Source of the DNA: Rhizobium sp. R635
GTDB taxonomy: Bacteria; Pseudomonadota; Alphaproteobacteria; Rhizobiales; Rhizobiaceae
Direction: 5' to 3'
Length of the DNA stretch: 64,000 nt
Assembly: GCF_002211285.1 (NCBI RefSeq)
Contig: NZ_LOKX01000034.1
Coordinates: forward strand, 1 to 64,000
Each line of letters opens with the position of its first letter. The stretch's first letter is position 1. The position numbers and the translations under genes were made by a program. The notes beneath the pieces were generated by a model. It made no database searches, was not told the origin of the DNA, and saw nothing but the letters and a program-made list of their open reading frames with translations. Shown in pieces: positions 3,651 to 40,774 of the stretch.

Positions 3651-3844
3651 TGCTTGAAAACTGCGATCGGCCGCTGACATATTCGCGGCGATCGAGCCGC
3701 TAAAAGCCTGAAAACACTGGCAAGCGGCTGTAATATTTCCATCATGGTCATGCCTCAAAATAGGCAAGCGGGAATCGCCGTTCCGGAACCCCGCTTTGGG
3801 GTTGAGCGTTGCCATATCACTGCAACGCGGATGGAAATCGTGAC

Positions 3845-5026
3845 ATGCTGCAACGTCCGGCAAACACTTACAGCGGCGAGAGCTGGGCCAATGCCGCCTC
3901 CGCCGGCAAACTGCCCGAACGGCTGGTAATCGTTACCGACGCCTGGCATCCGCAGGTCAACGGCGTCGTGCGCTCGATCGAAAACACCAATCGCGAGCTG
4001 GCGAAGATGGGCGTCGAGGTGTCGATGGTGACGCCCGAGCGCTTCAACAGCATCCCCTGCCCGACCTATCCCGAAATCCGCCTGTCGATCGCCGGCTATC
4101 GCCGCATCGCCCGCGAGATCGAAAAGCACAATCCCTCCTACGTGCATATCGCCACCGAAGGCCCGCTCGGGCTGACCGCTCGCCGCTGGTGCCTGAAGAA
4201 CCGTATGCCGTTTTCGACGAGCTACCACACGCGTTTCCCGGAATATGTCGCGGCGCGCCTGCCGATCCCGAAGAGCTGGCTCTATTCCTTCGTTCGCTGG
4301 TTCCACAATGGCGGCGCCGGCTGCATGGTGGCGACGCCGAGCCTTGCGCGCGAACTGTCGGAAAAGGGCATCCGCAATCTCATGCCCTGGAGCCGCGGCA
4401 TCGACGCCACGCAGTTCCGCCCGATGGCGCTGGAGGAAAAACCCTTCGGCCTGCCGCGCCCGATCTTCATGACCGTCGGCCGCGTGGCGCTCGAAAAGAA
4501 CCTGCCGGCCTTCCTCGATCTCGATCTGCCGGGCTCGAAGGTCGTCGTCGGCGACGGCCCGGCGCGTGCCGAGCTCGAAAAGCAATATCCCCAAGTCTTC
4601 TTCGCCGGCGTGAAGTTCGGCGAGGAACTGGCGCAGGCCTATGCCCAGGCTGACGTCTTCGTCTTTCCCTCGCTCACCGACACTTTCGGCAACACCATCC
4701 TCGAAGCGCTGGCATCGGGCGTGCCGGTCGCCGCCTATCCGGTGACCGGCCCCCTCGACATCATCGGCGAAGACAGCGAGGTCGGCGCGCTCGACACGGA
4801 CCTTCGCGCCGCCTGCCTTGCCGCCCTCTCCGCTTCGCGCGAAAAGGCGCATGCGCTCGCCATGCAATATTCCTGGGAAGCGGCGACGCTGCAGTTCATC
4901 AACAACATCCGCGCCGCAAACGGCGTGATCACGCCGAAATGGAAGAAGGCCTGGCAATTCGCCAAGTCGCTTCCAAGAAGCAGAAAGCCCGGCGAAACCG
5001 CCGGGCCTGTCCCGTCTGGGGACTGA
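3845..5026 (+). CDS. GT4-family glycosyltransferase
   Basis: A 393-residue GT-B fold glycosyltransferase. It has the N-terminal DAWHPQVNGVVRS motif typical of the sulfoquinovosyl/mannosyl/glucuronosyl lipid-type GT4 enzymes and a C-terminal nucleotide-sugar site (MTVGRVALEKN, then FPSLTDTFGNTILEALASG with the E-x7-E pattern). It probably adds a sugar to a diacylglycerol or another lipid at the membrane. From memory it resembles the Agrobacterium glycolipid synthase Agt, but the donor and acceptor cannot be read from sequence. The ATG at 3845 has a GGAAA site, and the upstream TTG at 3809 is less likely. A hairpin (CCCGGCG/CGCCGGG, 4988-5005) lies in the last codons. Confidence 0.8.
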   Translation: MLQRPANTYSGESWANAASAGKLPERLVIVTDAWHPQVNGVVRSIENTNRELAKMGVEVSMVTPERFNSIPCPTYPEIRLSIAGYRRIAREIEKHNPSYVHIATEGPLGLTARRWCLKNRMPFSTSYHTRFPEYVAARLPIPKSWLYSFVRWFHNGGAGCMVATPSLARELSEKGIRNLMPWSRGIDATQFRPMALEEKPFGLPRPIFMTVGRVALEKNLPAFLDLDLPGSKVVVGDGPARAELEKQYPQVFFAGVKFGEELAQAYAQADVFVFPSLTDTFGNTILEALASGVPVAAYPVTGPLDIIGEDSEVGALDTDLRAACLAALSASREKAHALAMQYSWEAATLQFINNIRAANGVITPKWKKAWQFAKSLPRSRKPGETAGPVPSGD

Positions 5027-31902: not shown

Positions 31903-32347
31903 GAGAAGTCGGCAGCGCCCGGCCGTCGCTCGCAGTGAACAGAAGGATCGCGAAAATCACGAGACTGATGGCAAGCGCAAAACGCTGCCACCAGACGATG
32001 CGGCGCGATCCGGCAATTCGTCTTTCGAGGCCAGGCGGTGTCCCGTCAGGCTTGCGAAGCTGCATCCGGGAGAGCAGGTCGTCGACGGCGGCAAGACCGG
32101 CGGCCTCTGTCTCATGGCTCGACGCGAGGCGGAACAGCAGCGCATCGAAGAGGAGATGGATCGCCAGCGCAAGGACGATCCCGCAGAAAACCAGCATCAA
32201 GAGCCAGCCGAGCGCTGGAGCGAAGCCTCGATATCCCTGGGTGATCGGGCCGATAATCAGCGGCAACAGCGCCGTCAGCCCGCAGACGATTGAATTGCGG
32301 CCGAGATTTCGCGCAGCCGCCGAGGCCGTGGCATTCCACTGCGTCAT
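31883..32347 (-). CDS. Membrane protein of unknown function in the ynb-like cluster
   Basis: A 154-residue protein with predicted transmembrane segments at about 17-35 (SIVCGLTALLPLIIGPI), 45-68 (LGWLLMLVFCGIVLALAIHLLF) and 120-138. The ATG at 32347 has a perfect GGAGGG site and overlaps the stop of the phosphatase gene upstream (ATGA), so it is the last gene of that operon. I do not recognise the family. E. coli ynbABCD has no counterpart in this position. Confidence 0.7.
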   Translation of the reverse strand: MTQWNATASAAARNLGRNSIVCGLTALLPLIIGPITQGYRGFAPALGWLLMLVFCGIVLALAIHLLFDALLFRLASSHETEAAGLAAVDDLLSRMQLRKPDGTPPGLERRIAGSRRIVWWQRFALAISLVIFAILLFTASDGRALPTSLSLALI

Positions 32348-33672
32348 TGCAAGCCCTCCGTCACGGCATGGATGCTTTCCTCGGGCAGATGAACCCGCCG
32401 CCCCGCCCGCTCGATCAGCCGCAGCGCTTCGGCCGGAGTTTCGCAGCGCCGGCTGATGAGCAGCCAACGCACGATGACGCCGGCGCTGCGCTGGAAACCG
32501 AGCGCACAGCAGACGAGGATCGGTCCCTGGTGGCGCGCAGCCTCGATGAGGTTCGCCGCGGCGAGCGTCTGGATCTTGTCGAGACCTGTCAGATCAAGGG
32601 TCGGAAAGCTGCACCAGCGCGTTGATGTCCCGCTCGGGCACTGAAACTCGCCGGTGAGGTCGATCACCGTGGCAAAACGGTCGGCCTCGTGGCGACGCGG
32701 AAAACGGCCGAGATGGACGCCGTCAGCGATCGCCACGGATGACGGCATTTTCCGGGTCCAGAGCCAAACGTTGATGAGAGCGCCGAGCCGATAGGGTGCC
32801 AGCAGCCAGCGGCTGGCAAGCGCCGCCCGGCCATCGGCGCGTTTCAGGAATATCTGCGGGCCGGCGCCGAAATATCCGACTGCGACGATCGCCAGCGCAA
32901 CGGCCGGCCAGAGCAACAGAAGCGCTGCGGCCGATAGAGGAGTAAAGAGCGCTGCAAGGCCGAGAAATGCGAGGGCGCCGCATAGATAATAGATACCGAG
33001 ACGGCGCGACTTCGCATCGTCGCTCAGAGCAAAATTCGCAAGAGGCGAACCGGCATCGCGCGGGAAAAGCCAGGCGGCAAACAGGCCGAGCAGCACGCCG
33101 GTCGGTATGTCCATGACGTGATGCTGCCACGTCGTCAGCACGGAGGCGCCGATGAGGAAGCACCAGAAATGCCAGAGAAGCCGTATCCTCCCCGGCAGCC
33201 GGCCGCGCAGATGGTCCCAGATCACCACCAGCAGCGCGATATGCAGCGACGGCGCCTGGTTGAACGGCTTGTCGAAGCCGCCGAGGACGGCAAACATGAA
33301 ACCGGGCAGGCCGCTCGTTGCCGGCCGCACGAAGATTGCTTCGAGAGGAAACGCGATAAAGCAGGCAACCGCGATCAACTGGATCGTCAGATAACGCCTC
33401 GCGAGCCTATCCACGTCGCGCGGCGTGGTGTTGATGAACAGGCAGAGCCCGTAGAACAGGTTGATCGACCAGTATGGAATGATCGTCCATCCCAAGAACG
33501 GAATGGCGCCTTCCCATGCGAAGGCGATGTTCGGCACATGCGCGCGTTGCGACGCCAGCCAGTTGGCGCCGCCATAGGTCAGGTAGAAGAACGGCGCCAG
33601 GAAGGCGAGCCAGAGTGCGGCCCGCTTCAGGACCGGCGCTGTCCGGGAAAGAGGAGAATGTGCCTGCCCCAA
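32344..33672 (-). CDS. PAP2 lipid phosphatase fused to a dual-specificity phosphatase domain (YnbD-like)
   Basis: A 442-residue membrane protein. The first 290 residues hold about eight transmembrane helices and the PAP2 motifs (FDKPFNQAPSLH, then TWQHHVMDIPTG). The C-terminal 140 residues form a tyrosine/dual-specificity phosphatase with the loop VCCALGFQRSA, C-x5-R intact but the usual histidine before the cysteine replaced by Cys. The same fusion is E. coli YnbD. It probably removes phosphate from a lipid intermediate. TTG start with GAGGG, 10 bp after the upstream gene. Confidence 0.85.
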   Translation of the reverse strand: MGQAHSPLSRTAPVLKRAALWLAFLAPFFYLTYGGANWLASQRAHVPNIAFAWEGAIPFLGWTIIPYWSINLFYGLCLFINTTPRDVDRLARRYLTIQLIAVACFIAFPLEAIFVRPATSGLPGFMFAVLGGFDKPFNQAPSLHIALLVVIWDHLRGRLPGRIRLLWHFWCFLIGASVLTTWQHHVMDIPTGVLLGLFAAWLFPRDAGSPLANFALSDDAKSRRLGIYYLCGALAFLGLAALFTPLSAAALLLLWPAVALAIVAVGYFGAGPQIFLKRADGRAALASRWLLAPYRLGALINVWLWTRKMPSSVAIADGVHLGRFPRRHEADRFATVIDLTGEFQCPSGTSTRWCSFPTLDLTGLDKIQTLAAANLIEAARHQGPILVCCALGFQRSAGVIVRWLLISRRCETPAEALRLIERAGRRVHLPEESIHAVTEGLQ

Positions 33673-33682
33673 GGCTTTGCCC

Positions 33683-35467
33683 TCAAACTCTCTCCGCCAG
33701 CGAGACGGTGAAAATGCCCCACTGGTCGATGCGCTGTTCGATCTTGCGGAAACCGGCCGCGGCGATGAGTTGATCCATTTCTTCTTGCGTGCGCCGCCGC
33801 ATCACCCATGCCTGACCGCCACGGTGGGAAGTGAGCGCGCGGGCGATCATCTCCAGTTGCGGATGCCATGGCTGGTTGGTGTAGACGAGCAGACCACCGG
33901 GCTGCATCGCGCGGGCGATCCCGTCGAGCGAGGCGGCGATCATCGCATTGTCGGAAAACAGCTCGTAAAGGCCGGAGACGATCGCCAGATCCGGAGCCGG
34001 CGTGATCGCAGCCAGCCCCTCGCCGTCAAAGGCATCCTGCTGACGGAAGCTCACGAAATCACCCAGTCCACGCGCGGCGATGCTGTTGCGGCCGGCCTCG
34101 ACGTTGATCGGGGAATAATCCTGCAGCCGCGCGCTATCGGGACGCACGGCAGCCGTTTCGATCGCATCGAGGACATAACGGCCGTGCCCGGCCGCGATGT
34201 CGAGCATATGGGTGCTGCGGCCGGCTGCCTTCAGGCGTTGAAGCCCGTGGTCGATCAGTTCCTGCAGATGCAGCTTGCGTTGCCTGATGCCGCGCCAGCC
34301 GATCGCCTCGAGGAACACCTTGTCGATCAACCGCCCACCGGGACCGAGCCCCCGCGGTTCATTCTCGTAGACGTAATCGAGCGTCGAGCCGGAATCGAAA
34401 CCGGTCTTGACGCCGGTCTTTATGCCTTCGGACACCAGCGCGCCGAGCCTGATGTTGAGACGGCTGAGCGCCCAGTAGATGCCGCGCGGGGATGCGGCGT
34501 CCAGAGGGCTTGCGAGGCGGTCGGCCTCGTCCTTGGTATAGCCCTGGACATGGGCGGTGCGAAGGTCGGCAGGCGCCCGGGGTTCGGCGAAACGCGCTTC
34601 GATGAAACGGCGAACCTCGGCCAGCGCAATCGCCCGGTCCCTTTCGCCAAGCGTGTCGTGGTAGAAGCCGGCGAGCACATGCCGTTCCTTGATGCGGCTG
34701 CCGAGGTTTTCGTAAAACCGGTGCTGCGGCGCATGCCGCACCACCCAGTCGCTGCCGGAGATCAGCAACTGGGTCGGAACGGTGATGGCGCGGGCGTCGC
34801 TGACGACGCGGGCTGCCGCCTCATAGAGCTGCAACAGAATGTTGGAGGCGATCGGCCTAGATATCAAAGGGTCGGCTTCAAAGGAGGCGATGCGCTCCGG
34901 ATCATGCGTCAGAAACCTCGCCTTGACATAGGAATTGACGAAGAACGTTCCCTTGAGCTTTTCCCAGAGCGCAATGCCTTCCCTGGCAAAAGGCACATAG
35001 AGCTTGACGCTGAAGGCGGGTGAGGCCAGCACGAACGCACGGATCGGCGGCGCATAGTCGTGCACCCAGGTGCTGGCAAGAACCGCGCCGACGCTCTGCG
35101 CAATGACGGCGATGTCTTCGACCGCAGTACCGCTTGTCTCGCTGACATGGCGGACGAAGCAATCGAGATCACGCGCCGAGGCGGCAAAGGATGGCGAATA
35201 GCCGCGCTCTCCCGGCGAACGCCCGTGGCCGCGCGCGTCCCAGGCGTAGAAGGCAAAATCATCGAGGCCGAGCTCGGCGGGAAGATGGGCGACGCGGCCG
35301 CTGTGCTCATGGCCGCGATGGAGAAGAATGATCGCGCCCTTGGCTGCAGCGCCGGTCGCAGGCCAGGTCCGATAAAACAGTCGAGTGCCGTCATGCGAGA
35401 CAAATTCGGATTCACGCACTGGTCTGGCCGTCGAGGACGGTTGCACGCTATCGGTAGTCTGCAGCAC
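33683..35467 (-). CDS. Alpha/beta hydrolase fused to a SAM-dependent methyltransferase (YnbC-like)
   Basis: A 594-residue bifunctional protein. Residues about 30-290 are a serine hydrolase of the monoacylglycerol-lipase type (LLHRGHEHSGR, AWDARGHGRSPG, nucleophile elbow IAQSVGAV, C-terminal HDTLGE histidine). Residues about 360-590 are a class I methyltransferase with MLDIAAGHGRYVLDAI. This is the YnbC architecture. The GTG at 35467 has an ideal GGAGAAGACC site, so the upstream TTG at 35503 was not used. It starts the leftward operon and is divergent from the CDP-alcohol transferase. Confidence 0.85.
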   Translation of the reverse strand: MLQTTDSVQPSSTARPVRESEFVSHDGTRLFYRTWPATGAAAKGAIILLHRGHEHSGRVAHLPAELGLDDFAFYAWDARGHGRSPGERGYSPSFAASARDLDCFVRHVSETSGTAVEDIAVIAQSVGAVLASTWVHDYAPPIRAFVLASPAFSVKLYVPFAREGIALWEKLKGTFFVNSYVKARFLTHDPERIASFEADPLISRPIASNILLQLYEAAARVVSDARAITVPTQLLISGSDWVVRHAPQHRFYENLGSRIKERHVLAGFYHDTLGERDRAIALAEVRRFIEARFAEPRAPADLRTAHVQGYTKDEADRLASPLDAASPRGIYWALSRLNIRLGALVSEGIKTGVKTGFDSGSTLDYVYENEPRGLGPGGRLIDKVFLEAIGWRGIRQRKLHLQELIDHGLQRLKAAGRSTHMLDIAAGHGRYVLDAIETAAVRPDSARLQDYSPINVEAGRNSIAARGLGDFVSFRQQDAFDGEGLAAITPAPDLAIVSGLYELFSDNAMIAASLDGIARAMQPGGLLVYTNQPWHPQLEMIARALTSHRGGQAWVMRRRTQEEMDQLIAAAGFRKIEQRIDQWGIFTVSLAERV

Positions 35468-35664
35468 GGTCTTCTCCAATTCTGATTGATGGATGAGTTG
35501 CAACCATTGGCGGCAACAGTGATTTGCTTTTATTGCAAAAGTCTAGCTGCAAATGTAAGTCCTTGAGAAGACCGACATGAGATGGGACTTTCCTCACAAG
35601 TACGACGATCCGCACGTCCGAGCCGATAGACTATGATCATGCCACGAAACTCCACTGAGGTAGC
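35468..35664. promoter_or_regulatory. Divergent promoter region of the ynb-like cluster
   Basis: This AT-rich 197-bp stretch lies between the divergent hydrolase/methyltransferase and CDP-alcohol transferase genes and must carry both promoters. TTGCAAAAGTCTAGCTGCAA (35534-35553) is a small imperfect inverted repeat and a possible operator. Confidence 0.4.
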
Positions 35665-36276
35665 ATGTCCGTTTACCAATTGAAGTCCCGATTTCAGGAT
35701 ATTCTCCGCCCTCTGGTGCGCGCCCTGGCGGCGCGAGGCGTTACCGCCAATCAGGTGACTTCGGTTGCTGCCGCCGTCTCGGTTGCACTTGGCCTTTTTC
35801 TGAGCGTCGCCCCGCTGCCGCATTGGTTTTTCTTGGTGCCTGTATGGTTTCTCCTGCGCATGGGCCTCAATGCCATTGACGGCATGCTCGCGCGCGAACA
35901 TGGGCAGAAGAGCATTTTAGGCGCCTATCTCAACGAGATCGGTGACGTCATATCGGATGCTGCCCTTTATTTGCCGTTTGCGTTCATCGATCCGAACGAT
36001 CTGATGCCGGTCATAACAGTCATATTCCTCTCGGCGCTGACGGAATTTGCCGGCGTCCTGGGTCAAACGGTCGGTGCAAGCCGGCGTTACGACGGGCCGC
36101 TGGGCAAGAGCGACCGTGCAGTGCTGTTCGGCGCGCTCGGCCTCTTTATCGCCGTTGGCGGTACGTTTGCAGCGTGGACCTCATGGCTTTGGGCCGCGGT
36201 GGCTCTGCTTCTCGCATGGACCACCGTCAACCGTATCCGCGCCGGTATTCGTGAGGCGCAAACGGCCGCCGGATAG
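35665..36276 (+). CDS. CDP-alcohol phosphatidyltransferase (YnbA-like)
   Basis: A 203-residue membrane enzyme with about six helices that should move a phosphatidyl or similar group from a CDP-alcohol to an acceptor. The family motif reads N-x2-D-G-x2-A-R-x8-G-x3-N-x3-D (NAIDGMLAREHG, then LGAYLNEIGDVISD). The usual first and third aspartates are Asn. As I recall E. coli YnbA shares this feature, along with GPLGKSDRA-like residues. The product lipid is unknown. ATG start, with GAGGTAG upstream. Confidence 0.85.
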   Translation: MSVYQLKSRFQDILRPLVRALAARGVTANQVTSVAAAVSVALGLFLSVAPLPHWFFLVPVWFLLRMGLNAIDGMLAREHGQKSILGAYLNEIGDVISDAALYLPFAFIDPNDLMPVITVIFLSALTEFAGVLGQTVGASRRYDGPLGKSDRAVLFGALGLFIAVGGTFAAWTSWLWAAVALLLAWTTVNRIRAGIREAQTAAG

Positions 36277-36424
36277 GAAGCGGAGCCGATCGGGCGCCGG
36301 TTCTTCCATCGGCATTGTATTCCGGAAACTATGTCGAACGCCGTTTCTTTCGAGTTGCTTGGCAAGTGTTCCTTCCGGGCCGCTCTCCTTTAAAACCGGG
36401 TTGTATTTTTAGCGCCACCTCTTG

Positions 36425-36445
36425 AAAGCACAAAAGCGGTGCTTT
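36425..36445 (+). other. Hairpin directly before the TnpB-like frame
   Basis: AAAGCAC-N7-GTGCTTT forms a 7-bp stem whose last base abuts the ATG at 36446. It could affect translation or be a fragment of a transposon right-end structure. No assignment is possible from sequence alone. Confidence 0.4.
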
Positions 36446-36946
36446 ATGTTTTATACTATGGCGAACATAGGTAAGACATCTCACCCATCGCTGCTGCGCT
36501 ACACGCTCGCGCCGGATGATCAGGCCCGGCAGGCGCTTGACGACACCATTGTCGCCTATCGCAGGATGATCGACATCCTCACTGAGATCATCGACGACAA
36601 GGCGGGCGCCAATCTCGTCGTCCTGCATGAGCTTGCCTATGAAACCGTTCGCGAACAGACGGGCCTGCCGGCGCGGCTGGTCACACTCGGCCTTCGTGAT
36701 TTCGCCGCCAATCGCGGCGTGATCGCCGATCCGCCGCAGCTGCCGCTCGATGACAAGCTCTTCGCCATCAAAGGCCCCTCGGACCTGACGATCGCCACGG
36801 TGCACGGGCGCGTTGCCGTGCCCTTCGACGTCGCCGGTTATTCCAGGGGATGGGAGAGCATTTTTCCGGCCTATCTTGTCGCCGGCCACAATCATTACGA
36901 GATTCACATCGGCGTCACGCCGAATTCCGCTCGGATGGAGGAAAAC
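36446..36946 (+). pseudogene. TnpB-like N-terminal (REC/WED) module without nuclease domain, in frame with the PspA gene
   Basis: About 167 codons with no stop, starting at ATG 36446 (or 36458). The protein reads LVVLHELAYETVREQTGLPA..., then LPLDDKLFAIKGPSDLTIAT, HGRVAVPFDV and HYEIHIGV. This matches, from memory, the pattern in TnpB proteins of IS200/IS605 elements (Y-x2-R-x3-LPA-x-L helix, then the WED-domain strands), ending just where RuvC would begin. No RuvC or zinc-finger part follows. Codon use is high-GC like the host. It may be a remnant, a domesticated protein, or the N-terminus of a fusion with PspA (total about 383 residues). Confidence 0.55.
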
Positions 36947-37597
36947 ATGACGAACGAAGGCATTCTTTCACGCATGGGTCGCCTGATCGCGGGCATCGCG
37001 AATGCGGCGGTCGACAAGGCGGAAGGCGTCAACAAGATCGCCGTCATCGAACAGGCGATCCGCGAGATCGATGCGGCAGCGGACGAGGCCCGCACCGATA
37101 TCGGCAAGGCGCGCGCCGAGGAATACCGCATCCAGAGCCGCAGGGACGAAATCGTCGAGGACATGAACGCACTCGACGAAAAGATCCGCCTTGCCGTCTC
37201 CTCCGGGCGCGACGACCTCGCAAAGGCCGGCGTCGCCCGCCAGATCGATCTCGAATCCCAGATCGCCGCGCTCGACAAGGCGCTGGCCGATGCCAAAGAG
37301 CAGGTGGACGAGGGCCAGAAAGCCCTGCAGGCCGTGCTTGCAACGCGCCGCGAGGCCGACGCCCGCCTTGCCGATTTCAAGCGCAGCATCGCCCAGCATC
37401 CCGAACAGGTGGCAGCCGGCCACGCCAGGCCCGCGCCGGGCGCCGGTGCGGCCCGCGCGGCCGCCGCGGTCTCGCGGCTGACCGGCGTTCCATCAGACGA
37501 GCATATCCATAGTTCCGAACTGGACGAACTCGACCGGCTGCACCGCGAACAGGCGATCGAGGCGCGCCTCGCTCGCTTCAAGGCGGATAACCGGTAA
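36947..37597 (+). CDS. pspA: PspA/IM30 (ESCRT-III-like) membrane-stress protein
   Basis: A 216-residue, mostly coiled-coil helical protein of the PspA/Vipp1 family: an N-terminal amphipathic helix (MTNEGILSRMGRLIAGIANA), long charged heptads to about 150, an Ala/Pro-rich linker and a C-terminal helix (LDELDRLHREQAIEARLARF). It should bind and protect the inner membrane. The ATG at 36947 has a strong GGAGGAAAAC site, so it can be made alone even though the frame is open upstream. It is followed by yqiJ- and yqiK-like genes at 5 bp and 4-bp overlap. No pspBC or pspF is present. Confidence 0.88.
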   Translation: MTNEGILSRMGRLIAGIANAAVDKAEGVNKIAVIEQAIREIDAAADEARTDIGKARAEEYRIQSRRDEIVEDMNALDEKIRLAVSSGRDDLAKAGVARQIDLESQIAALDKALADAKEQVDEGQKALQAVLATRREADARLADFKRSIAQHPEQVAAGHARPAPGAGAARAAAAVSRLTGVPSDEHIHSSELDELDRLHREQAIEARLARFKADNR

Positions 37598-37602
37598 CGC
37601 CG

Positions 37603-38250
37603 ATGGCACTTCTCTTCGCCCCCGAATGTGCTCCCTTCGCCATCGCCGCCGCCGTGCTCGCAGGCCTGACCGCAATCGAAATGCTTGCGACCGTCATGGG
37701 TTTTTCGATCATGGAATTTCTGGGAAAACCGGATTTCCATGGCCATGACGGCCTCTCGGGCTACCTATCCTGGCTCAATGTCGGTGGCGTTCCCCTGCTC
37801 ATCCTCATCATGCTGGCGCTCGGCTTCTTCGCCATGACCGGCTTTGCCATACAGGCCGTCGCCAACGCCTTCTGGGCGCCGCTTCCCGCCATCGTCGCCG
37901 CCATTCCCGCCATCCTGGTCACGGTTCCCATGGTCAGGGCGTCGAGCCGGACCGTGGCGCGGATCGTGCCGCACGACGAGACCTATGCCGTCGATCTCGA
38001 CGCGCTGATCGGCCGGACCGCCGAAGTGTCGCTCGGTCCGCTCGACCAGGGACTGCCCGGGCGCGTCCGCGTCAAGGACCAGCATGGAAACTGGCACGTG
38101 CTGAGAGCCAAGGCCGCCAGAGACCAGGGCCCTCTCAAGGTCGGCACCGAGGTTCTCCTCGTCGATCGCAAGGCAGATGTATTTATCGCCATTCCCGCGC
38201 TGGCGGATCCCGCCGCAGCGGACAATCAATCTTTCAGGGAGCAGCCATGA
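37603..38250 (+). CDS. yqiJ: YqiJ-like membrane protein with OB-fold domain
   Basis: A 215-residue protein with three to four transmembrane helices (about 10-35, 60-85, 90-112) and a C-terminal NfeD-like OB-fold (about 125-200: LIGRTAEVSLGPLDQGLPGR, HVLRAKAA). NfeD/YqiJ proteins act with flotillins in membrane microdomains. It lies between pspA and the flotillin gene and overlaps the latter by 4 bp. Confidence 0.88.
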   Translation: MALLFAPECAPFAIAAAVLAGLTAIEMLATVMGFSIMEFLGKPDFHGHDGLSGYLSWLNVGGVPLLILIMLALGFFAMTGFAIQAVANAFWAPLPAIVAAIPAILVTVPMVRASSRTVARIVPHDETYAVDLDALIGRTAEVSLGPLDQGLPGRVRVKDQHGNWHVLRAKAARDQGPLKVGTEVLLVDRKADVFIAIPALADPAAADNQSFREQP

Positions 38251-40013
38251 TGTATGACATTATTCTACCGGCCGGCATCGGCATCGTTCTGATCTTCGGC
38301 ATCGGCTTTGTCCTCGCCTCTCTCTATACGCGCTCCAGCCGCGACGAGGCCTATGTGCGCACCGGCCTCGGCGGCCAGAAGGTCGTGCTCGACGGCGGTT
38401 CCGTCGTCCTGCCGATTTTTCACTCAACCGCCAGGGTGAACCTGAAAACCCTGCGGCTCGAGGTTCGCCGCGGCGAGGGCGATGCGCTGATCACCAAGGA
38501 CCGTATGCGCGTCGATATCGGCGCCGAGTTCTACGTGCGGGTCAAACCCGATGCCTCGTCGATTGCCCTTGCCGCCCAGACGCTCGGCAACCGCACCAAC
38601 GACGCCGAGGCGCTCCGCATCCTGATCGAAGCGAAATTCGTCGACGGCCTCCGCTCGGTGGCGGCGACCATGAACCTCGACGCGCTGCAGGAACAGCGCA
38701 TGGATTTCGTCAAGGCCGTGCAGGAAGCCGTCGGCGCAGACCTCCAGTCCAACGGTCTCGAGCTCGAATCCGTGTCGCTCACCCGTCTCGACCAGACCGA
38801 CATCAAGCATTTCAACGCCAACAACTTCTTCGACGCCCAGGGTCTTGCGGCACTGACCCGCATCACCGAGGGCCGCAAGAAGGAGCGAAACGAAATCGTC
38901 CGCGACACCGAAGTCGCCATCGCCCAGAAGGATCTGGAAGCCCGCCAGCAGTCGCTGGCGATCGAGCGGACGAAGCGCGAAGCCGAACTCAACCAGGAAC
39001 GCGACATCGCCAACAAATCCGCCGCGACGCGCGCCGAAACCGCGCAGCAGGAACAGGCGGCCAAGCGCGCCGAGGAGGAGGCCCGCATCGCCTCCGAACA
39101 GGCGATCGCCGAGCGAGAGGCAGCCGCCAAGCAGGCCCGCGAAAGCGCCAACATCGATGCCGCCCGCGCCGTCCAGCAGCGCGATACCGAAGCCAAGCGC
39201 GACCTTCAGATCGTCGCCCAGGAAAGCGCCATCGCCGTCGCCAACAAGAGCCGCGAAGAATCCGAGGCGAAGGCGACTGCCGAAATGGCCCGCGCCCGCG
39301 CAATCGCGGCGGAGGAAAAGGTCGGCACCGCCAAGGCCATCGAAATTGCCGAGCGCGAAAAGCAGATCGCCGTGATCGATGCGCGCAAGACCGCCGAAAC
39401 CGAAGCCACCGCCGTCACCGTCGGCGCGGAGGCCGAGAAGCAGGCTGCGATCGACCAGGCGGAAGCCATCAAGACGCTTGCGACCGCCGAAGCGGATGCG
39501 GCGATCATCAAGGCCAAGGGCATCCTCGAAACCGGCCGGGCTCAGGCTGAAAGCGAAGCGCTTCTCAACGAAGCCCGCAACAAGCTCAGCCAGACCATCA
39601 TCGAGTTCGAGATCACCCGCGAGCGTATCCGCATCATTCCCGAGGCGCTCGCCGAGGCGGTCAAGCCGATCGAGAAGATCTCCGATATCAGGATCTTCGA
39701 CACCGGCGGCATGCTCGGCCGCGGAAACGGCGCGAACGGAGAAGGCGGCATCGGCATGGGCGAAGGACTGGCTGGCCAGTTGCTCGCCTACCAGGCCAAT
39801 AAGCCGATCCTCGACAAGCTGTTGCAGGAAGCGGGCTTCGACGGCGATAACGCCATTTCGGCCCTCCTTGGAAATCTCGATGGCGCAAAACCGGCAAAGC
39901 CGGCCGCCCCTCCGGCAAGGCCTGCAATCCCGGCCACGGCTCCGGCAAAGCCGGCAGCACCGGCCGCAGCCCCGGCAACGCCGATCGCCCCTCAGGCGCC
40001 GAAGAAGGAATAG
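38247..40013 (+). CDS. yqiK: Flotillin-like protein (YqiK)
   Basis: A 588-residue SPFH/flotillin protein: one N-terminal membrane segment (IILPAGIGIVLIFGIGFVLA), an SPFH/band-7 domain (about 30-200), a long Ala/Glu/Lys coiled coil (about 210-450) and a Pro/Ala-rich tail (about 550-588, repeats of AKPAAP). It forms oligomeric membrane scaffolds. With PspA and YqiJ it makes a three-gene membrane-stress operon. The ATG at 38247 overlaps the yqiJ stop (ATGA type), and the next codon is also ATG. Confidence 0.92.
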   Translation: MMYDIILPAGIGIVLIFGIGFVLASLYTRSSRDEAYVRTGLGGQKVVLDGGSVVLPIFHSTARVNLKTLRLEVRRGEGDALITKDRMRVDIGAEFYVRVKPDASSIALAAQTLGNRTNDAEALRILIEAKFVDGLRSVAATMNLDALQEQRMDFVKAVQEAVGADLQSNGLELESVSLTRLDQTDIKHFNANNFFDAQGLAALTRITEGRKKERNEIVRDTEVAIAQKDLEARQQSLAIERTKREAELNQERDIANKSAATRAETAQQEQAAKRAEEEARIASEQAIAEREAAAKQARESANIDAARAVQQRDTEAKRDLQIVAQESAIAVANKSREESEAKATAEMARARAIAAEEKVGTAKAIEIAEREKQIAVIDARKTAETEATAVTVGAEAEKQAAIDQAEAIKTLATAEADAAIIKAKGILETGRAQAESEALLNEARNKLSQTIIEFEITRERIRIIPEALAEAVKPIEKISDIRIFDTGGMLGRGNGANGEGGIGMGEGLAGQLLAYQANKPILDKLLQEAGFDGDNAISALLGNLDGAKPAKPAAPPARPAIPATAPAKPAAPAAAPATPIAPQAPKKE

Positions 40014-40033
40014 TCCGGCGCAGGCAGGTCCAG

Positions 40034-40774
40034 TTAGCGCACCCAGCCTGTCGCCAGCGCGCTCGCCCAGTCGGCACGGCCCCTTTCGGCGGCCAGTGCC
40101 GACATTGCCATATGGTCATAGGCAACGGTTCGGAATTGCCATATCCAGCCCGCCGCCGTCTTTTCCAGGATGGCATAGCTCGCCAGCGGATGGCCCGCTT
40201 CGACCTTGTGATAGTAGGGCAGAACATCGTCATAGGCGGGGCAACCGACGCTGCCGGGATTGACGATCAGGCGGCCGTCGGAAAGGCGGACGGCGCGCGG
40301 GAGATGGCTGTGGCCGCAGAGGATCAACGGCAGGTCGATGCCCTCCGCCAGCGCCTTGATCGCTTCGATCGGCTTCGGAAAGACGTAGCCCTCCGGCGAG
40401 ACGGACTCCAGCCAATAGAGATTGTCGTCCTTCGGCGTCGCGTGGCAGAGATAGGCCTCGCCGCGATAGACGGTATCGAACGGCAGGCCCCGCAGCCAAT
40501 CGAGATGGGACGGCGTCAGTTGCCGGTAAGCGACGGCATCCGAAGCATGCATCAAGGCCGGGTCCTGCTCGATGAGATAGCGGTCGTGATTGCCGCGCAC
40601 CGAGGTCAGGCCGAGCGGCATCAGCATGTCGGCCGTCCGGCCGGCCTCCAGCGGGCCACTGAAGAAATCACCGAGATTGACGATCTCCTCGATGCCCTGC
40701 GCCCGGATATCCGCAAGCACCGCCTCGAGCGCCAGATGGTTGCCGTGAATGTCGGCGATCGCGGCAAACCTCAT
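40034..40774 (-). CDS. Calcineurin-like metallophosphoesterase
   Basis: A 246-residue YfcE/MJ0936-type phosphoesterase with all metal motifs: AAIADIHGN, NLGDFFSGP, RGNHDRY, LCGHSHLPRAV and the C-terminal NPGSVGCPA. The substrate is unknown (phosphodiester or nucleotide). Its ATG follows the uraH stop with no gap, so it is transcribed with the purine operon, and a role there is possible but not shown. Confidence 0.87.
   Translation of the reverse strand: MRFAAIADIHGNHLALEAVLADIRAQGIEEIVNLGDFFSGPLEAGRTADMLMPLGLTSVRGNHDRYLIEQDPALMHASDAVAYRQLTPSHLDWLRGLPFDTVYRGEAYLCHATPKDDNLYWLESVSPEGYVFPKPIEAIKALAEGIDLPLILCGHSHLPRAVRLSDGRLIVNPGSVGCPAYDDVLPYYHKVEAGHPLASYAILEKTAAGWIWQFRTVAYDHMAMSALAAERGRADWASALATGWVR

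Follow-up and report, generated by a model that had tools for sequence, protein, structure and literature searches.

The window analysed here, 64,000 nucleotides of Rhizobium sp. R635 (contig NZ_LOKX01000034.1, positions 1 to 64,000), contains an operon of pspA, yqiJ and a flotillin-type gene. Our computations show that, in this Alphaproteobacteria PspA-YqiJ-flotillin operon, the front half of one TnpB subfamily forms the N-terminal domain of PspA, has neither nuclease nor zinc ribbon, and has been maintained by selection. Many soil alphaproteobacteria carry a TnpB front half as such a lasting extra domain on a membrane-stress protein, where it may act as a protein-only switch of its own operon. 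From 36422 a single frame runs uninterrupted into pspA and ends at the PspA stop, 37597. This bears out the open fusion frame proposed by an initial annotation of the DNA, and the peptides it quoted, HGRVAVPF and HYEIHIGV, are present. The genes concerned are the following.

36458–36946, + strand: TnpB-derived WED-REC-WED module, fusion residues 1–163, recognised by hhalign, Foldseek, VIA-align and tblastn.
36947–37597, + strand: PspA (PF04012, Pfam E 1.5e-15), in frame with the module and also a predicted short product.
37603–38250, + strand: yqiJ, encoding a membrane protein with an OB fold (PF21001, PF07290), 3' of the fusion in 80 of 80 loci.
38247–40013, + strand: flotillin-type gene (PF15975, PF01145), in 80 of 80 loci.

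The module almost certainly descends from the WED-REC-WED front half of TnpB. Against TnpB N-terminal halves hhalign gives 99.5% over 162 columns at ~23% identity, with shuffled controls below 2%, and the match stands far above reversed as well as shuffled controls. The matching profile comprises 11 TnpBs from plasmid matches, one (L069) reached via the module itself and the other ten via a plasmid locus (L068); the set was picked with the question in mind and both controls used the same set. The REC/WED homology read by the initial annotation, and the structure comparison it proposed, are upheld by the predicted module structure, for which the top matches in Foldseek and VIA-align are all TnpB/Cas12f. 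Searched with tblastn, the module matches annotated TnpB directly, with E down to 1e-3, and NCBIfam returns TIGR01765 (tspaseT_teng_N, the N-terminal domain of TnpB type) at E 0.1, a family matched by 3 of 40 family members. No Foldseek match falls below E 1e-3, and PDB sequence searches (phmmer and profile) return no TnpB, only unrelated weak rows, as would suit an unrelated domain of similar fold. The 162-column profile match and the tblastn matches to annotated TnpB make that explanation most improbable. The source is one TnpB subfamily, TIGR01765-like, as 19 other usable alphaproteobacterial TnpB halves give no profile match to the module (score 1.8). The RuvC nuclease with its acidic residues is absent, as initially noted, the frame going from WED straight into the PF04012 PspA domain. 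The 379 residues of the fusion hold no CxxC pairs and no Pfam match to a zinc ribbon, and no full TnpB was found in the host genome (5.82 Mb, 37 contigs). Separate nuclease-less TnpB front halves of 176–180 codons also occur on two Paenibacillaceae plasmids (L068:2501-3031 and L083:2489-3031). They share 53.5% identity over 88%, cluster together beside TnpB in the tree, and are perhaps a second, independent case of a nuclease-less TnpB half.

The fusion is widespread and constrained. The module is present in 30 of 100 relatives, the host's own genome being counted among them, and all 30 read without interruption from the ATG equivalent to 36458 through PspA. The stops that the initial annotation named as a possible refutation do not occur from the true start. 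A class-wide sample has the module in 6 of 385 genomes, an order-wide sample of 397 genomes gives 24 whole fusions and 9 PspA-only matches, and a scan of named genomes gave 132 relatives, of which 80 were kept for analysis. The relatives, named-genome and order-wide loci overlap in genomes, and the 111-, 109- and 110-row sets drawn from them are not all separate species. The kept loci span Rhizobium, Neorhizobium, Ensifer, Shinella, Bradyrhizobium, Microvirga, Enterovirga, Hyphomicrobiaceae, Dongia and Rhodospirillales, and the fusion extends beyond rhizobia. Over 437 pairs from 77 of the 80 loci, the module has a median dN/dS of 0.126 and the PspA part one of 0.103, which reflects long-term selection and agrees with the earlier reading that this is not a fresh insertion. 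In a tree with the 11 TnpB halves and the two plasmid-borne halves, 28 of 28 modules fall on one side of a branch with support 100/100. A decaying transposon leftover, read through into PspA by chance, could draw on the transposon ancestry and on one locus (L037) showing that the locus can be lost. It is scarcely credible beside a module dN/dS so close to that of PspA, 30 open frames of 30 and the class-wide spread.

The yqiJ gene is found in 31 of the 100 relatives, namely the same 30 module carriers and G082. This genome (G082:C301, L199) is the sole relative with yqiJ and without the module; its yqiJ match has an internal TAA and its PspA match an internal TGA, and the operon copy may be decaying or misassembled. 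In G044 (L037, G044:C1 ~3727-4145) a deletion remnant joins ~19–23 module residues in frame to the C-terminal part of the flotillin. Weak module matches among the relatives were set aside, L032–L035 being alpha/beta hydrolases by eye and L036 a receptor-like protein.

Control of the fusion turns on four further features.

36422–36450, + strand: inferred promoter, TTGAAA (36422–36427), 17 nt, TATGTT (36445–36450), read from the sequence.
36425–36445, strand not applicable: palindrome AAAGCAC-AAAAGCG-GTGCTTT, candidate operator spanning the promoter spacer.
36674–36676, + strand: codon of R73, which tracks the operator type in an operator/residue comparison.
36937–36941, + strand: GGAGG Shine-Dalgarno (SD) sequence for the internal PspA start, conserved across loci.

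The fusion most likely starts at ATG 36458 (MANIGKT...), because locus L006 has a TAG one codon 5' of the equivalent ATG and 36446 lies inside the inferred −10 box. It then has 379 residues, 163 codons preceding pspA; the fusion of the initial annotation stands, and its length of 383 residues with 167 codons before pspA is corrected. Since ATG 36458 is so close to TATGTT, a leaderless transcript is predicted. There is no stop between the two parts, and a ribosome initiating at 36458 therefore makes the fusion. Pfam has no named domain over the first 163 codons. The PspA part, with its own ATG at 36947, has a long helical hairpin and a preceding N-terminal helix (H169-187, H193-248 and H252-313) in a full-length model of pLDDT 74, the pTM of which (0.42) means that relative domain placing was not used.

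The strong SD initially proposed for PspA alone, itself a predicted product, proved to be conserved. An SD of at least 5 nt precedes the internal PspA ATG in 104 of 111 loci (scored from 115) and one of 4 nt in the remaining 7, compared with at least 5 nt at 16 of 429 other in-frame ATGs used as a control. The peptides encoded across the internal SD take 42 forms, with in-frame indels, and the first Glu codon of the SD shows no synonymous variation. The first in-frame start after the palindrome has an SD of this length (5 nt or more) in 3 of 109 loci. On this pattern the operon probably yields two forms, a long TnpB-PspA whose start is near-leaderless and lacks an SD, and PspA alone, initiated at a strong internal site.

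A symmetric site is present in the promoter of the operon, the promoter itself being a prediction. The first in-frame start comes 8–13 nt past the palindrome in 87 of 109 loci, and the other 22 also have an ATG or GTG 0–2 nt past it. The exact palindrome occurs once in the host genome, with one further site at one mismatch, and in 27 of 100 relatives, a single copy each. It is found in 25 of the 30 module genomes, upstream of the module, versus 2 of the 70 others (G018 and G066); G002, G009, G010, G025 and G047 have the module and no exact copy. In other lineages the arms differ in step, as AAGTGAC/GTCACTT in Microvirga and as AAAGGA/TCCTTT, AAAGTA/TACTTT and AATGAC/GTCATT elsewhere. In an arm test on 30 distinct 21-mers, hand-picked with loci lacking a palindrome left out and the weaker first copy used for L092, pairing cells reach 97.1% against 88.8% in shuffles and cells with both sides changed number 14 against 3.0, neither value being reached in 500 shuffles, although kinship among sequences alone can beat such shuffles without structure. 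Across the 80 loci the only same-strand families common to all are the fusion, yqiJ and flotillin, a fourth group being antisense frames, and the next same-strand open reading frame family reaches 27 of 80, from which no regulator gene travels with the operon. The Rhodospirillales locus L092 (3922-3985) apparently holds the operator-like site twice: a weak copy sits in the promoter spacer, and an exact copy lies beside the start codon, downstream of a −10-like box.

From this arrangement we infer that the fusion may be the reader of the palindrome. Of nine columns with a basic residue in TnpB, five are still basic in the module (R14, R65, K100, K105 and R118; counted on 76 of 80 loci, thinned to 29). 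At residue 73, 109 of 109 rows agree with the operator: the 97 loci that have one GTG half-site or more carry R, and the 12 that have GTC or GTA carry Q. L163 was skipped as its motif was unmatched, L090 was left out, L018 was not in the set, and L172 and L173 were dropped as repeats. Later loci not identical to earlier rows fit the pattern in 21 of 21 cases, one of them being Q. We regard the agreement between residue 73 and operator as a lead that hints at contact and not as proof. An apparent switch of residue 73 within a genus (L176 versus L187, L188 and L192, one genus code) was rejected, as these lie on different tree branches. Within the PspA part, fusion residue 182 (window 37001-37003) of the first helix divides the loci just as cleanly: most of the GTG type have N or S there, and the 12 others all have H. 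Six module-less PspA loci were also read, and in five of them (L195–L199, of three kinds) pspA, yqiJ and flotillin are consecutive, with a separate gene of 158–169 codons just 5' of pspA whose start is ribbon-helix-helix-like by eye. In L199 a short palindrome lies, by eye, between −35-like and −10-like boxes.

These features suggest a model, plausible and still tentative, in which the long form is an RNA-free autoregulator with its TnpB half on the operator and its PspA part sensing the membrane. The TnpB half of the long form would bind the palindrome in the operon's own promoter, and operator binding by this TnpB-derived domain is a reasonable possibility, if short of probable. On stress the PspA part would be drawn to the membrane and take the regulator off the DNA, whereupon PspA, YqiJ and flotillin would be made; release through membrane recruitment is the more doubtful step. 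A fuller version is more conjectural than the autoregulator itself. Here the TnpB WED-REC half, freed of guide RNA and nuclease, would read the palindrome through its last REC helix, the PspA fusion would report membrane stress to the promoter, and this protein-only regulator would occupy the slot of the ribbon-helix-helix-like gene in related operons.

Several observations weigh against operator reading by the fusion. The module is acidic, with a mean charge of −3.8 (70 rows) versus +6.0 for the 11 related TnpB halves, two halophile members of which are negatively charged, and +18.3 for the 19 others. Four of the nine TnpB-basic columns are lost, and two of these, in the last REC helix, are now the invariant L77 and D81. 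The tree shows just three changes of residue 73, the two independent pairs on well-supported branches both agree and are too few for significance, and PspA columns 182 and 359 separate the operator groups equally well. In the arm test, pairs changed on both sides (3, reached by 102 of 500 shuffles) and pair types (8, reached by 52 of 500) are not exceptional. Locus L018 retains the fusion and has lost the palindrome, and L090 is without one. The ribbon-helix-helix reading of the pre-pspA gene found no support in five library searches (Pfam, PDB, PHROGs, NCBIfam), and 1 of 64 homologues of one such protein is named an Arc/MetJ-type regulator. Nearly as likely as the autoregulator is a domain that binds protein only, the palindrome being read by an unlinked regulator encoded elsewhere. 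The exapted fold would have lost nucleic-acid binding and become an interaction or capping domain, and long TnpB-PspA would co-polymerise with short PspA and either restrict the assembly of the latter or dock it to YqiJ/flotillin. The acidic module and the replaced basic residues of the REC helix suit this role, as do the strict linkage to yqiJ and flotillin and a dual start that fits a mix of subunits. Against this, a host regulator should have further sites, whereas each of the 27 genomes (of 100) with the exact palindrome has a single copy, and the two arms have diverged together from lineage to lineage.

That privacy to the operon and the compensating arm changes would also fit an RNA leader hairpin acting in cis to control fusion translation, with the module uninvolved. 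Transcription from the predicted promoter would leave this hairpin out, as each arm overlaps a promoter-like box and in most loci the start codon is 10–12 nt further on; with the L092 exact copy after its −10-like box also counted against it, this explanation is unlikely. A TldR-like RNA-guided regulator, in which the module still carries a guide RNA, would make sense of the retained TnpB WED-REC fold. It is very unlikely given the loss of RuvC, a charge below that of TnpB halves and a genome with no TnpB as guide-sharing partner. The reRNA-like RNA that the initial annotation had proposed to look for nearby did not appear either, Rfam giving no family match in 35500-40100, a search that an undescribed reRNA could escape.

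Compared with TnpB of IS200/IS605 (TIGR01765 type), the module shares the WED-REC-WED half and differs in having no RuvC, no zinc ribbon and no guide RNA seen, in its acidity and in its fusion to PspA. To our knowledge, the known TnpB exaptations (Cas12, TldR) retain RNA guidance. A fixed TnpB half without RuvC represents another exaptation route besides these, and if the module binds DNA, an RNA-guided nuclease would have turned into an ordinary DNA-binding protein. TldRs are described as TnpBs with an inactivated RuvC that keep their guide RNA (PMC13418256). The likeness to TldR is that of a domesticated TnpB relative tied to a host gene, possibly as a repressor, whereas here the RuvC half is gone and any DNA reading by the module would be protein-only.

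In E. coli, PspA is both a membrane effector and a negative regulator that inhibits a separate activator, PspF. The dual role is the likeness; in the fusion, by contrast, PspA itself would carry the DNA-binding part. If true, this would suggest how such phage-shock operons are controlled without the E. coli PspF route, no search for PspF having been made here. With the ESCRT-III-like PspA/IM30 proteins the fusion shares PF04012 and the long helical hairpin, the N-terminal TnpB domain being extra. The PspA fusions named in PMC11237479 are tandem PspA, NlpC/P60 and PspAA. The same paper describes a CesT/Tir-PspA-YqiJ-flotillin operon group; those operons share PspA, YqiJ and band-7/flotillin with ours and have a separate CesT/Tir-like gene in contrast to the fused TnpB module. 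Passages of PMC9239133 name no TnpB-PspA fusion. Literature searches on the TnpB-PspA combination (judged by title and abstract), nuclease-dead TnpB exaptation, PspA-YqiJ-YqiK and Rhizobium PspA-flotillin brought up none either, with a mention possible in TnpB-diversity or TldR-discovery papers. Within the reach of these searches, the new points are the origin of the N-terminal half in TnpB, the fixation of that half, the paired starts and the palindrome; the fusion itself is known under the PspA name.

The fusion is already in the databases as 'PspA/IM30 family protein', and its module is 87–90% identical to Rhizobium database proteins. A protein search derived from the module gave 478 proteins at E <=1, and the best 120 of the 478 are 333–403 residues long, every one with PF04012. 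The start annotated for the database protein of Rhizobium etli CFN 42 (P0141) probably lies too far downstream, because this protein has 343 residues where 379 are usual. Directly upstream of the operon, window 32344-36276 encodes, as read by eye, a PAP2-plus-phosphatase fusion and a hydrolase-plus-methyltransferase fusion, together with a CDP-alcohol phosphatidyltransferase (PF01066), a set of genes that we take to be reminiscent of E. coli ynbABCD.
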